64,000 bases of DNA. Source: Bradyrhizobium sp. 1(2017). GTDB lineage: Bacteria > Pseudomonadota > Alphaproteobacteria > Rhizobiales > Xanthobacteraceae. Within the stretch, counting starts at the first letter, position 1; each line of letters begins with the position of its first letter. Shown here piece after piece: positions 57,287-62,511 of the stretch. The stretch lies in contig NZ_CP050022.2 of NCBI RefSeq assembly GCF_011602485.2, forward strand, positions 3,926,001 through 3,990,000, read 5' to 3'. Under the pieces are notes generated by a model, which saw only the letters and a list, made by a program, of their open reading frames with translations, made no database searches and had not been told where the DNA came from. The position numbers and the translations under genes were made by a program.

Positions 57287-57853
57287 TCAGTCCTTGGCGC
57301 GCTCGGAGTAGGAGCCGTCTTCGGTCATCACCACGATGCGGGTGCCGACCGAGATGTGCGGCGGCACGGTGGTGCGGACACCGTTGGAGAGCACCGCGGG
57401 CTTGTAGGAGGAGGAGGCGGTCTGGCCCTTGGTCACCGGTTCGGTCTCGACCACTTCCAGCGTCACGCGCTGCGGCAGCGCGAGCGAGACCACATTGACG
57501 TCGTGGGTCGACAGCTTGACGATCATCTCCGGTTGAAGATACGCGGCCGCGTCGCCGACGACGTCCTTGGGCACCTGGACCTGGTCGTAGGTCTCGGGGT
57601 TCATGAAGTGGAAGCCGTCGCCGTCTTCGTACAGGAACGTGTAGTTGCGCTCTTCGATCGTGGCCTTTTCGACCTGGTCGGTGGTCTTGTAGCGCTCGGA
57701 GATCTTTACCCCGTCCGAGATTCGGCGCATTTCGATCTGGCTGACCGGGGTGCCCTTGCCGGGATGGATGTTCTCGGCGCTCACGACGACATAAAGCTTG
57801 CCGTCTTGCTCGATCACGTTGCCCTTGCGAATAGAACTGGCGATGACTCTCAA
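57287..57853 (-). CDS. efp: Elongation factor P
   Basis: 188 residues. The KOW-like domain has the modification loop [12 protein letters not shown] with Lys33, equivalent to E. coli Lys34. [29 protein letters not shown] follows in part, then OB domains and the C-terminal [19 protein letters not shown]. It relieves ribosome stalling at polyproline. The genes for its beta-lysylation (epmA, epmB) are divergent next door, so Lys33 is expected to carry beta-lysine. No epmC was seen in the window. Confidence 0.97.
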
Positions 57854-58015
57854 AGCTGTATTTCCTGCTTGCTTGGCCCGGCACCGGCCAGGACATGGTC
57901 AAATCGATGGGGGACTTGGGGCCTCAAATCAGACCTCGGCGCCCGTTTCGGGCCGCAACATACTGATTTTGCCGTTGGATGCCAGCATTTTGCTGTCGCG
58001 GGAGGCGGTGGGTTA

Positions 58016-59080
58016 ATGGCTGGGGACAAGCCGATTTCGCCGTTCTGGTCGCCCGGGCGGCACATCGACCGGCGCCCCTTCCTCCGGGCCAGGGGGGCCA
58101 TTAGCGGGGCTTTGCGCGGATTTTTCGCCGAGCAGGGCTTCGTCGAGGTCGAAACCTCAGTCCTCCAGGTCTCCCCCGGCAATGAGACCCATCTGCACGC
58201 CCCCAGGACCGAGATCATGCGGCCGGACGGCAGCCGCGCCAGCCGCTATTTGCGGACCTCGCCGGAATTCGCCTGCAAGAAGCTGCTGGCGGCCGGCGAG
58301 GAGCGGATTTTCGAGTTTGCCCGGGTGTTCCGGGACCGCGAGCGGGGTGATCTGCACCTGCCTGAATTCACCATGCTGGAATGGTACCGGGCAGGCGCCC
58401 CCTACGACGCCATCATGGCCGATTGCGTCGTCATCATCGCCCGCGCGGCGCAGGCGACCGGCACCGAGACTTTCGCCTTCCGCGGCCGGACCGCCGACCC
58501 CTTCGCGGAGCCGGAGCTTCTGACGGTCGCGGGCGCCTTCGAGCGACTCGCCGGCATCGACCTGCTGTCGACAATCTCGGGCGACGAGGGTAACCGTGCC
58601 GCGCTGGCCGAGGCAGCCAGCGGGAAGGTCCGTGTGGCCGAGGACGACACCTGGTCCGACATCTTCAGCAAGGTTCTGGTCGAACATGTCGAGCCGCATC
58701 TGGGGCAGGGGCGTTTGACCATTCTGTTCGAATACCCATCTCCAGAGGCGGCGCTGGCGCGCGTGAAGGCTGGCGATGCCAGGGTCGCCGAGCGGTTCGA
58801 GGTCTATGCCTGCGGCGTCGAGCTCGCCAACGGCTTTGGCGAGCTCACCGATGCCGAGGAGCAGCGCAAGCGCTTCACGGACTCCATGGCGGAAAAGCAG
58901 CGCCGTTACGGCGAGGCCTATCCGCTGGACGAGGATTTTCTGGCCGCAGTTGCCGCAATGCCTGAAGCGAGCGGTGTCGCACTCGGTTTCGACCGGCTGG
59001 TGATGCTGGCAAGCGGCGCATCGCGGATCGATCAGGTGGTGTGGACGCCGCCGGCAGATGAAATGCAAAGTGAGACATGA
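58016..59080 (+). CDS. epmA: EF-P--(R)-beta-lysine ligase
   Basis: 354 residues, a LysRS class II catalytic core without the anticodon domain, as in EpmA/PoxA/GenX. Motif 2 is FEFARVFRDRERGDLHLPEFTMLEWYR (in part: ARVFRDRERG), EVETSVLQVSPGNETHLHAP is the N-terminal region, and the final motif 3 is GVALGFDRLVMLASG. It attaches beta-lysine to EF-P Lys33. GGGAGGCGGTGGG precedes ATG 58016. The stop overlaps epmB as ATGA. Confidence 0.95.
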   Translation: MAGDKPISPFWSPGRHIDRRPFLRARGAISGALRGFFAEQGFVEVETSVLQVSPGNETHLHAPRTEIMRPDGSRASRYLRTSPEFACKKLLAAGEERIFEFARVFRDRERGDLHLPEFTMLEWYRAGAPYDAIMADCVVIIARAAQATGTETFAFRGRTADPFAEPELLTVAGAFERLAGIDLLSTISGDEGNRAALAEAASGKVRVAEDDTWSDIFSKVLVEHVEPHLGQGRLTILFEYPSPEAALARVKAGDARVAERFEVYACGVELANGFGELTDAEEQRKRFTDSMAEKQRRYGEAYPLDEDFLAAVAAMPEASGVALGFDRLVMLASGASRIDQVVWTPPADEMQSET

Positions 59081-60171
59081 CGAAGACCAATCTTGCACGC
59101 ACATTGCGTGATCCGGCCGAGCTCGTCGCCGAAGGCCTGGCGCCTGCCGCGGCGCTGCCGGCGCTGGAACGCGTCGCTGCGCGCTATGCGGTGGCGATCA
59201 CGCCTGATCTGGCCGAGCTGATCGATACGACCAATCCCAAGGATCCCATCGCGCGGCAGTTCGTTCCGACCGCGGCCGAGCTGGACGTGCAACCGGGCGA
59301 GAACGCCGATCCGATCGGCGATCACCCGCATTCGCCGGTTCCCGGGATCGTGCATCGCTATCCCGATCGGGTGCTGTTCAAGCTCGTACACGTCTGCGCC
59401 GTCTATTGCCGCTTCTGCTTCCGCCGCGAGATGGTGGGACCGGGCAAGGAGAACGCGCTCTCGGACAGCGCCTATCGCGCAGCGATCGACTACATTCGCG
59501 CGCATGACGAAATCTGGGAGGTCATCCTCACCGGCGGCGATCCGTTGATGCTCTCGCCGCGACGTATGAGCGAGATCATGGCCGATCTGGCCACAATCGA
59601 TCACGTCAAGATCATCCGTCTTCACACCCGCGTTCCCGTCGCCGATCCCGCGCGCATCAGCGACGAGATGGTCGCTGCGCTCAAGGTCGAGGGCGCGACC
59701 ACCTGGGTCGCGCTGCACGCCAACCATGCGCGGGAACTGACCAGAACAGCGCGCGCCGCCTGCGCGCGGCTCGTCGACGCCGGCATTCCCATGGTCAGCC
59801 AGTCAGTCCTTTTGCGCGGCGTCAACGACAACATCGCGGCTTTGTCGGATTTGATGCGAGCTTTCGTTGAATGCCGGATCAAGCCCTACTACCTGCATCA
59901 CGGCGATCTCGCGCCCGGCACCGTGCATTTGCGAACGACGCTGGCCCAGGGACAGGATTTGATGCGGCAGTTGCGCGGGCGGGTGTCAGGACTGTGTCAG
60001 CCCGACTATGTCATTGATATTCCCGGCGGAGCCGGCAAATCGCCGGTCGGACCGAATTATGTGTTGGCGGCACAAAATACCGCAGACGACGCGCGTGAAG
60101 CAGGAGCCGAAACGCGCTATCGTATCGTGGACTATTGCGGCGACGTTCATCTTTATCCGCCCGAGACGTGA
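59077..60171 (+). CDS. epmB: Lysine 2,3-aminomutase for EF-P (KamA/EpmB family)
   Basis: 364 residues. The radical SAM cluster site is CAVYCRFCFRRE (C-x3-C-x2-C). HRYPDRVLFKLVHV precedes it and GGDPLMLSPRR is the SAM-binding region. The PLP lysine is likely in the C-terminal VIDIPGGAGKSPVGPN. Short for a KamA, as EpmB proteins are. It makes (R)-beta-lysine for EpmA. Overlap with epmA (ATGA) shows coupling. Confidence 0.95.
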   Translation: MTKTNLARTLRDPAELVAEGLAPAAALPALERVAARYAVAITPDLAELIDTTNPKDPIARQFVPTAAELDVQPGENADPIGDHPHSPVPGIVHRYPDRVLFKLVHVCAVYCRFCFRREMVGPGKENALSDSAYRAAIDYIRAHDEIWEVILTGGDPLMLSPRRMSEIMADLATIDHVKIIRLHTRVPVADPARISDEMVAALKVEGATTWVALHANHARELTRTARAACARLVDAGIPMVSQSVLLRGVNDNIAALSDLMRAFVECRIKPYYLHHGDLAPGTVHLRTTLAQGQDLMRQLRGRVSGLCQPDYVIDIPGGAGKSPVGPNYVLAAQNTADDAREAGAETRYRIVDYCGDVHLYPPET

Positions 60172-60613: not shown

Positions 60614-61699
60614 CTAAGCCGTTCGCTCGTGCAGCCCCGCGCGCTGGGTATTGCGGCGGATCTCGACCGCGTCGGCGAGCTGCTCGAGCGTTGTTGCCGT
60701 CGTCGTCCAGTCGATGCAGCCATCGGTGATGCTCTGGCCGTAGGTGAGCGGCTTGCCCGGTACCACGTCCTGACGGCCGGCGACGAGATTGCTCTCGATC
60801 ATCACCCCCATGATGCGGTTCTCGCCGCCTGCGATCTGGCCGGCAATGTCGGTCATCACCAGCGGCTGGTTCTCCGGCTTCTTGCTCGAATTGGCGTGGC
60901 TCGCATCGACCATCACGAGCGGCGCGACGCCGGATTTGGTCAGTTCGTTGCAGGCGGCCGCAACGCTTGCCGCGTCGTAGTTCGGCTTGCTGCCGCCGCG
61001 CAGGATGATGTGGCAGTCCTCGTTGCCCGCCGTCGAGGCGATCGCCGAACGGCCGAGCTTGGTCACCGCCATGAAATGATGCGGATGCGAGGCCGACTTC
61101 ACGGCGTCCGCCGCGATCCGAACGTTGCCGTCGGTGCCGTTCTTGAAGCCGACCGGGCAAGACAGCCCCGACGCCAGCTCGCGATGGATCTGGCTCTCGG
61201 TCGTCCGTGCGCCGATCGCAGCCCACGACACGAGGTCGGCGATGTATTGCGGCGTCGTCATATCAAGGAATTCGGTGCCGGCGGGCAGGCCGAGATTGTT
61301 CACGGCCGAGAGCACGTTGCGCGCGAGCCGCAGGCCCTTGTTGATGTCGAAGCTGCCGTCGAGATCGGGATCGTTAATCAGGCCCTTCCAGCCGACGGTG
61401 GTGCGCGGCTTCTCGAAATAGACCCGCATCACGATCTCGAGCTGGTCGGCGAGGTCCTCGCGCAGTTTTACCAGGCGCTCGGCGTAGTCGAGCGCGGCCT
61501 TGGGATCGTGCACCGAGCACGGGCCCACCACGACCAGCAGGCGGTCGTCCTGGCCGGTGAGGATGGCATGGATGGCGTTGCGCGCGGCCATCACCACACG
61601 TGTCGCGGTAAGCGTGCGCGGGACTTCCCGCATCACCTCTTCCGGCGTGCTCAGCTCTTTCAATTCGCGGATACGAAGATCGTCGGTCGTGCTCAGCAC
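60614..61699 (-). CDS. aroG: 3-deoxy-7-phosphoheptulonate (DAHP) synthase, class I
   Basis: 361 residues from GTG 61699, which follows AGGAG by six bases. Class I DAHP synthase signatures are LLVVVGPCSVHDPKAALDYA (in part), RVYFEKPRTTVGWKGLIND, GLPAGTEFLDMTTPQYI, ARTTESQIHRELASGLSCPVGFKNGTDG (in part), and DASHANSSKKPENQPLV with metal and phosphate ligands. It makes the first step of the shikimate pathway. Which amino acid inhibits it cannot be read. It is preceded by a leader peptide gene and terminator hairpin, so attenuation is expected. Confidence 0.95.
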   Translation of the reverse strand: MLSTTDDLRIRELKELSTPEEVMREVPRTLTATRVVMAARNAIHAILTGQDDRLLVVVGPCSVHDPKAALDYAERLVKLREDLADQLEIVMRVYFEKPRTTVGWKGLINDPDLDGSFDINKGLRLARNVLSAVNNLGLPAGTEFLDMTTPQYIADLVSWAAIGARTTESQIHRELASGLSCPVGFKNGTDGNVRIAADAVKSASHPHHFMAVTKLGRSAIASTAGNEDCHIILRGGSKPNYDAASVAAACNELTKSGVAPLVMVDASHANSSKKPENQPLVMTDIAGQIAGGENRIMGVMIESNLVAGRQDVVPGKPLTYGQSITDGCIDWTTTATTLEQLADAVEIRRNTQRAGLHERTA

Positions 61700-61735
61700 G
61701 GCGGGCTCCTGTCGGTTTCGAACCTGCCGGCCAAT

Positions 61736-61760
61736 AAAAAAGCCGCCAGGTCTGGCGGCT
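61736..61760 (-). terminator. Attenuator terminator ahead of aroG
   Basis: On the - strand AGCCGCCA-GACC-TGGCGGCT (61760-61741) is an 8-bp stem with a 4-base loop, followed directly by TTTTT. It lies 36 bases before the aroG GTG and 23 bases after the leader-peptide stop. Its left arm AGCCGCCAG can pair instead with CTGGCGGC at 61813-61806 inside the leader coding sequence, an antiterminator. Confidence 0.88.
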
Positions 61761-61783
61761 TGTTCGGACGTTTGCTTCAATAT

Positions 61784-61864
61784 TCAGATTGAGCGCGATC
61801 CTCCTGCCGCCAGCGAGCTGTCGTAGCTAAAATACCAAAAATAGCTGGTGGCGACGGTGATCAT
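61784..61864 (-). CDS. aroG leader peptide (26 aa, aromatic-rich)
   Basis: ATG 61864-61862 to TGA 61786-61784. The peptide runs MITVATSYFWYFSYDSSLAA and ends GGSRSI. Residues 8-14 are Tyr-Phe-Trp-Tyr-Phe-Ser-Tyr, so six of seven are aromatic. It lies between a sigma70-like promoter and the aroG terminator. No ribosome site precedes the ATG, but the promoter spacing puts +1 within a base or two of it, so the mRNA would be leaderless. The control codons lie between RNA segment 1 (61852-61844) and segment 2 (61814-61806), which can pair. The peptide's role is to be translated, not to act as a product. Confidence 0.85.
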   Translation of the reverse strand: MITVATSYFWYFSYDSSLAAGGSRSI

Positions 61865-61871
61865 GGCAGGC

Positions 61872-61900
61872 CATATAGCGTGCCGCTGGCTCCTTGTCAC
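61872..61900 (-). promoter_or_regulatory. Promoter of the aroG leader
   Basis: On the - strand -35 GTGACA (61900-61895), a 17-base spacer, and -10 TATATG (61877-61872). These match TTGACA and TATAAT at five and four of six positions, with ideal spacing. Seven bases separate the -10 box from the leader ATG. Confidence 0.65.
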
Positions 61901-61932: not shown

Positions 61933-62511
61933 TCAAGTGTTGCTCTTGCGCGCCGCCAGCGCCATGCCGATCAGGGTGGCGCCGCCGAACAGCAGGTTGA
62001 TACCGACGAGGACGCCGATCGCCCATTCCGCCGAGCTCGGCAGTCCCGCGATCACCATGAACGAGATCGCGATGTCGACGAGGCCCGAGATCAGCAGCCA
62101 CGACCAGCGGCTGCTCAGCTCGCGGCGATGCTCCAGTGCATACATGATGGTGGCGACGCCTTCGGCGAGAAAATAGGCGCCGAGCACGATGGTCAGCGTC
62201 AGCACGGCCTGCATCGGTCGGGTGAGCAGAATTCCTCCGGCGAGCACCGCGAGCGCAGCGGAGATCAGCGACCACCAGAAGCCCGGCGTGCTGCGCGCCC
62301 AATAGGTCACGATCAATCCGCCGATGCCGGCGATCAGGAACATCCAGCCGAGGAAGATCGCGGTCGCAAGGCTCGCGAGCGGCGGTAGGATCAGCGCGGC
62401 AATGCCGAGCGCGGCGAGCAGGATGCCTTCGAACAGAAAGGCCTTCCAATGCGCCTTCACCGCCTTGCTCATCGCGGATTGCAACCGGGAAAAATCCTCG
62501 GGCGATGTCAT
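61933..62511 (-). CDS. HdeD family (DUF308) membrane protein
   Basis: 192 residues with six hydrophobic segments in the DUF308 pattern: AFLFEGILLAALGIAALILP, FLGWMFLIAGIGGLIVTYWAR, FWWSLISAALAVLAGGILLTRP, GAYFLAEGVATIMYALEHRR and GINLLFGGATLIGMALAAR. HdeD is implicated in acid resistance at high cell density in E. coli; the biochemical role is unknown. It lies just upstream of the aroG leader promoter, with no terminator between them visible, and 68 bases downstream of the PrsW-like gene. Confidence 0.9.
   Translation of the reverse strand: MTSPEDFSRLQSAMSKAVKAHWKAFLFEGILLAALGIAALILPPLASLATAIFLGWMFLIAGIGGLIVTYWARSTPGFWWSLISAALAVLAGGILLTRPMQAVLTLTIVLGAYFLAEGVATIMYALEHRRELSSRWSWLLISGLVDIAISFMVIAGLPSSAEWAIGVLVGINLLFGGATLIGMALAARKSNT

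Follow-up and report, generated by a model that had tools for sequence, protein, structure and literature searches.

A predicted ribosome-mediated attenuator with an aromatic leader peptide ahead of class I aroG in Bradyrhizobium and other Proteobacteria

The window analysed here is a 64,000-nt stretch of the genome of Bradyrhizobium sp. 1(2017), and its minus strand contains aroG, a gene for a class I DAHP synthase, preceded by the features listed in Table 1. This enzyme determines the flux towards every aromatic amino acid. The aroG product matches PF00793 at 1.1e-94 and exceeds the cut-off of TIGR00034 (aroFGH); its score with the AroG-only model NF006723, 555.3 of 568 bits, is slightly below the cut-off of that model. 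The gene is the sole class I match in its own 7.86-Mb genome. At another place the genome carries a gene for a class II DAHP synthase (G000:C1:3373458-3374771, L138), and no aromatic leader was noticed by eye in the DNA upstream of it. The aroG promoter lies in a very short gap: its -35 box is 32 nt from the end of a membrane protein ORF (61933-62511, minus strand), presumably HdeD-like. Two adjacent ORFs at 57356-60171 on the plus strand have the look, as we assume, of an EpmA-type lysyl-tRNA-synthetase paralogue and an EpmB/KamA-type aminomutase (EF-P modification).

Table 1. Features of the aroG upstream region, in window positions.
Feature	Position	Strand	Basis
Promoter GTGACA-N17-TATATG, extended -10 GCTATA	61872..61900	-	direct reading and conservation
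-35 box GTGACA	61900-61895	-	read directly
-35/-10 spacer, 17 nt		-	read directly
-10 box TATATG	61877-61872	-	read directly
Gap of 7 nt from -10 box to leader ATG	ATG at 61864	-	read directly
Leader ORF, 26 codons, MITVATSYFWYFSYDSSLAAGGSRSI, leaderless by prediction (+1 on or beside the A of the ATG)	61784..61864	-	reading and conservation
Control codons 8-14, Tyr Phe Trp Tyr Phe Ser Tyr	61823..61843	-	ORF translation
Segment 1, GCCACCAGC, pairs with segment 2	61844..61852	-	read directly and alignment
Segment 2, CTGGCGGC, antiterminator 5' arm, within leader codons 18-20	61806..61813	-	
Segment 3, GCCGCCAG, common to antiterminator and terminator	61752..61759	-	
Segment 4, CTGGCGGC, same letters as segment 2	61749-61742	-	read directly
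T-run	61741-61736	-	read directly
Intrinsic terminator, hairpin of segments 3:4 with T-run	61736..61761	-	terminator scan and alignment
AGGAG ahead of aroG	61710-61706	-	read directly
aroG, class I DAHP synthase, 361 aa, GTG start at 61699	60614..61699	-	profile matches

The sequence-only reading had described a promoter, a 7-nt gap, an ATG opening a 26-codon ORF with YFWYFSY, a terminator, AGGAG and aroG; direct reading found all of these elements where it had placed them, each verified base for base. The pairing that it had proposed between segments 1 and 2, with one mismatch, is present in the letters (segment 1, GCCACCAGC, pairs with GCTGGCGGC at eight of nine positions), as is the proposed identity of segment 2 with the 3' arm of the terminator, both being CTGGCGGC. 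Six of the seven residues of the control run are aromatic. The terminator scan lists the aroG hairpin, the stretch holding two such sites vs 1.8 ± 1.4 in shuffles, and the promoter scan of the aroG upstream stretch listed no promoter, because its rule needs T at the final -10 position. Since terminator-like sites are common there and the promoter scan is blank, the statistics of a single sequence are weak proof. Across the 7.86 Mb of the genome, the pattern TWYTWYTGGTWYTWY matches at a single site, the aroG leader, which proves nothing alone, because the reversed control pattern was also found once.

Comparison of loci is more informative. In 62 of the 63 Bradyrhizobium and Mesorhizobium loci, TGACA and a hexamer 17 nt downstream are followed after 6-8 nt by the first in-frame ATG; the exception (L037) carries CGACA. 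This conserved spacing supports, as a prediction, the leaderless start which had been proposed from the window, and the leader mRNA is predicted to be leaderless in Bradyrhizobium and its kin. The GCTATA extended -10 has been experimentally verified in B. japonicum at another promoter, according to the consulted part of the transcription start site study (PMC4842269), whose main text mentions neither aroG nor attenuation. Several betaproteobacterial leaders show, by eye, a longer 5' end, so leaderlessness is not general.

A leader ORF, defined by at least four aromatic residues within seven, was found in all 56 Bradyrhizobium loci with this aroG (60 genomes searched) vs 34 of 3360 shuffles of the upstream DNA (1%); a stricter threshold of five aromatic residues retained 54 of the 56 loci vs 2/3360 shuffles, and the terminator was found by script in all 56. 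The class I aroG match is absent from four of the 60 genomes (G015, G032, G048, G053), so neither the gene nor its attenuator is found throughout the genus. A second, named set comprised the 80 loci best by aroG similarity, which is an uneven sample; 78 had enough upstream DNA. Two of the named loci (L032 and L034) coincide in contig and range with genus loci (L016 and L004 being the latter). Here a leader was present in 61/78 loci vs 227/4680 shuffles (4.9%, or about 5%), a rate at which chance would give about four loci, and in 56/78 vs 31/4680 at threshold five. The positive loci belong to Bradyrhizobium, Mesorhizobium, Devosia, Methylosinus, Phenylobacterium, Leisingera, Burkholderiaceae, Oxalobacteraceae and Xanthomonadales; the 17 without a leader at threshold include Vibrionaceae, Pantoea, Thauera, Azoarcus, Chitinimonas, Methylotenera and Ferrovum. 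Three of these 17 (L062, L066, L083) show, by eye, a diverged or frame-altered leader. In L066, from Candidatus Burkholderia humilis, which we take to be a leaf symbiont, the frame of the leader ORF is altered past the aromatic run, and the terminator and segments are kept.

In total, 118 of 136 loci have the leader, and the script found a terminator behind 112 of the 118; two of the other six (L044, L095) show, by eye, a longer-loop hairpin with a T-run. The two labels leader (70 rows) and none (15 rows) require three changes on an 85-row AroG tree vs 14.1 in shuffles, with L062, L066 and L083 set to leader by hand and with L073, labelled none, having only 49 nt upstream. Among 190 alphaproteobacterial genomes, class I aroG was found at E <= 1e-60 in six, the own genome included; four of the other five carry leader and terminator, and the contig of the fifth begins 157 nt upstream. 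Searches of Pfam and NCBIfam gave no match for the leader peptide.

Silent bases of segment 2 are constrained. The wobble bases of the segment-2/antiterminator codons CTG, GCG, GGA and GGA are invariant in 56 leaders (55 counted for one GGA), with no wobble-base change in 56 sequences at codons 18 and 19, which lie in segment 2; at comparable codons of aroG in the same genomes the mean heterozygosity is 0.339 and 4/151 are invariant. For this count L030, L135 and three Mesorhizobium leaders were dropped by hand (L030 without a stated reason, its segment-2 bases being identical), and two loci were lost for a truncated aroG. In an alignment of 46 Bradyrhizobium and Mesorhizobium leaders, the cells of the 2:3 antiterminator are paired at 92.5% (slid versions <= 38%), those of segments 1:2 at 95.9% (slid <= 61.1%) and those of the terminator at 100% (slid <= 57%). 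Double changes affect one antiterminator pair and no terminator pair, covariation within the genus being weak and uninformative because the pairs hardly vary, and RNAalifold did not choose the antiterminator on this leader alignment.

Across clades, the GGCGG:CCGCC core is almost invariant and its flanks follow each other in part; the pair beside the core changes from T-A to A-T in two Oxalobacteraceae and to C-G in two other betaproteobacterial combinations, and is unpaired in 11/45 combinations. Segment 2 is fitted better by its own segment 3 than by exchanged ones (2.62 vs 2.34 ± 0.08 of five flanking pairs, with 4/5000 swaps as high; 108 of 112 loci in 45 distinct combinations, relatedness ignored). 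A null of synonymous codons in 94 distinct leaders gave p < 0.05 in two leaders for 2:3 and in 12 for 1:2, with medians of 0.35 and 0.16, so that singly the pairings rarely beat chance; this null is over-conservative, because it was drawn from the leaders' own codon usage, conserved codons included. Most of the 12 are Burkholderiaceae, where segment 1 reads, by eye, UCCGCCA before UGGCGGA. Taken together, the identity of segments 2 and 4, the helix kept in 46 leaders and the swap control indicate an antiterminator predicted to be exclusive with the terminator.

The geometry is nearly fixed: the last codon of the aromatic run is separated from the GGCGG core of segment 2 by 11 nt in 83 of 111 loci (range 8-17 nt; a 112th locus has no core). 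Folding with a ribosome mask, with an assumed footprint from A site -15 to +12 and any upstream partner of segment 3 counted as a pair, gave a mixed picture. The leader of the window keeps 8-10 segment-3 pairs up to Tyr14, then seven and five at codons 15 and 16. Eight of 15 representatives (L048, L058, L067, L077, L080, L088, L092, L107) drop to zero pairs at or near the end of the run; for three the failure falls inside the aromatic run, at the last aromatic codon in L067 and L088 and three codons early in L107. The other seven, the window included, are reduced and never reach zero at the end of the run. The pairs are weakened already inside the run in L028, L038 and L046, and they recover with the ribosome further along in L028, L043, L046, L063, L067 and, at the stop codon, the window. 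Without a ribosome, RNA that stops short of segment 4 forms pairs with segment 3 in 10/15 representatives, and the naked full-length fold contains the terminator in 14/15, L090 being the exception. This modelling supports the switch only in part, so that the case for it leans more on the fixed spacing than on the folding.

The most probable explanation, with a probability of about 0.9, is that aroG is controlled in cis by a ribosome-mediated transcription attenuator, most likely one that turns on the enzyme opening aromatic amino acid synthesis when Tyr, Phe or Trp is scarce. This reading rests on the sequence parts, their conservation, the constraint on silent bases and the fixed geometry; the four-segment arrangement first proposed from the window is supported by conservation across loci. 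From these features we infer the start site, the stalling, the read-through and the amino acids that count, as follows. Transcription would start at or about one base from the leader ATG, and translation would proceed from a leaderless 5' end. With too little Tyr-, Phe- or Trp-tRNA charged, the ribosome would stall at codons 8-14 and mask segment 1, leaving segment 2 free for a pairing with segment 3 to which GGAU:GUCC and an inner stem would contribute; transcription would then continue into aroG. When all tRNAs are charged, the ribosome would proceed over segment 2, 1:2 may then form behind the ribosome, and the 3:4 terminator would release a short RNA of ~129 nt.

The leader may sense all three amino acids. 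The alternative that the attenuator is real and only one amino acid, likeliest Phe or Tyr, controls it, the other aromatic codons being passive, has to be taken seriously, at odds well short of even. It is favoured by AroR of Corynebacterium glutamicum, whose Phe-Tyr-Phe leader contains Tyr yet responded to Phe only, as reported in the accessible part of the source (PMC11802643), and by the absence of Trp from Oxalobacteraceae (0/12 distinct runs have all three aromatic residues) and from three of four further alphaproteobacterial leaders of the class search. Against it stands the presence of all three, Trp included, in 9/9 distinct runs of Bradyrhizobium, 9/9 of the other named Alphaproteobacteria (L062 and L083, below threshold, left out) and 6/6 of Xanthomonadales, as well as a Trp codon invariant across the 46-leader alignment; in the other Betaproteobacteria and the rest, 9/16 distinct runs have all three. 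Tyr11 is kept with its codon varying (TAT in 20, TAC in 36 of 56 leaders), and in some species Tyr-Phe is exchanged for Phe-Tyr, as would follow if it is the aromatic residue that matters.

The released RNA or peptide may also act in trans. That this is its main role, as for rnTrpL/peTrpL of Sinorhizobium meliloti, with a secondary effect in cis, is improbable in spite of this precedent from the same order, of the role of Bja-peTrpL tested in B. japonicum (PMC7298713, consulted in part) and of the partial conservation of the N-terminal leader residues in the genus, since the constraint tracks the pairing segments and all inspected strong matches of an RNA model stand directly ahead of aroG. 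This model (R1), built from the 46 leaders and run over the 190 class genomes, recovered the same four leader loci at E <= 1.7e-7, all directly before class I aroG, and two weak matches at 0.005 at loci without aroG; among 149 family genomes, 16 have a match, one per genome. Sixteen loci from both searches were inspected (six family matches, two of them weak, lie outside these), and aroG is directly downstream in 14, the other two being the weak class matches; thus all 14 inspected strong loci agree with aroG as the target named by the sequence-only reading. The reading that the promoter is constitutive, the ORF there by chance and the terminator leaky, with no amino acid sensed, would draw on the abundance of terminator-like sites in the stretch and is very hard to reconcile with conservation across alpha-, beta- and gammaproteobacterial loci and with synonymous constraint.

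A broader form of the attenuator reading can be put forward tentatively, at somewhat less than even odds: an unreported, ancient attenuator family of proteobacterial class I aroG, acting as a gate opened by any one of Phe, Tyr and Trp, leaderless in Alphaproteobacteria, replaced by TyrR/TrpR in Vibrionaceae and enterics, and with a terminated RNA that may also act in trans. The leader is absent from the three Vibrionaceae loci and the one enteric aroG locus examined. According to the part of PMC5343134 that was available, E. coli DAHP synthase is under TyrR and TrpR, and, within Gammaproteobacteria, control of aroG is attributed to TyrR in Vibrionales and TrpR in Pasteurellales; the former assignment fits the missing leader in the three Vibrionaceae loci, and protein repressors may have replaced the leader in Vibrionaceae and enterics.

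One conserved RNA element offers a direct, testable answer on the control of aroG in Bradyrhizobium, Mesorhizobium, Burkholderiaceae, Oxalobacteraceae and Xanthomonadales; no description of the control of class I aroG in Alpha- and Betaproteobacteria was found in the accessible parts of the open-licence literature. Each such genome gains a probable short gene and short RNA, leaderless leader peptides are extended beyond trpL, and it becomes possible to ask if a single leader combines the signals of three tRNAs.

Attenuation by aromatic codons through the ribosome is also the mode of E. coli pheL-pheA and pheM-pheST (Rfam RF01859, Phe_leader), which control genes other than aroG. Enteric leaders carry their own ribosome binding site. 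The Rfam scan of the window gave no family at threshold; RF01859 reached 26.3 bits vs a gathering threshold of 55, in a match (61733-61800) that omits the aromatic codons, RF00513 (Trp_leader) 19.1 bits vs 41, and BjrC1505 (RF02356) 18.5 of 50 bits, an above-threshold copy of the latter (130.2 bits) lying elsewhere in the genome. The aroG leader was accordingly taken neither as a member of these leader families nor as BjrC1505.

For the leaderless form, the nearest precedent is trpL/rnTrpL before trpE(G) in S. meliloti and Bradyrhizobium, likewise an attenuator ahead of a biosynthetic gene, with a leaderless leader ORF in S. meliloti, as described in the parts consulted of PMC7298713 and PMC10117765; it reads Trp only, and its gene and peptide differ from those of the aroG leader. 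The present genome has a trpL-like ORF (G000:C1:2133572-2133616, L139) that is 93% identical to the published Bja-peTrpL over 15 residues, with a -10-like sequence, by eye, directly before its ATG. The ORF behind it reads, as we take it, like trpE(G).

The nearest functional precedent is AroR, a leader peptide before the DAHP synthase gene aroF of C. glutamicum that also acts by ribosome-mediated attenuation (Neshat et al. 2014; PMC11802643, PMC4046766, in part); it is actinobacterial, has a short Phe-Tyr-Phe control motif, answers to Phe alone, and is likened here by description, not sequence. The same applies to the uORFC-13-1 motif before aroF, a predicted Phe-containing uORF with a terminator ahead of a DAHP synthase gene, confined to Acholeplasma and environmental sequences in the text available (PMC8632094). 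A Tyr attenuator has been hypothesised for aroF of E. coli (PMC8632094, PMC2659441, in part), and Merino's attenuator database lists candidates before tyrA-containing gene clusters in several bacteria (PMC1173090, in part), so a prior in-silico listing of an aroG attenuator there is possible. The novelty that the sequence-only reading had suggested therefore narrows: aromatic leaders ahead of DAHP synthase genes had precedents, and the part that stands is that no proteobacterial aroG leader is reported among the matches listed in the open-licence literature, as far as its texts were accessible. The kind of attenuator is known from trpL, pheL and AroR; what appears new, as far as the open-licence literature shows, is a widespread proteobacterial aroG version, predicted to be leaderless in Bradyrhizobium and its kin and often to read Phe, Tyr and Trp together.
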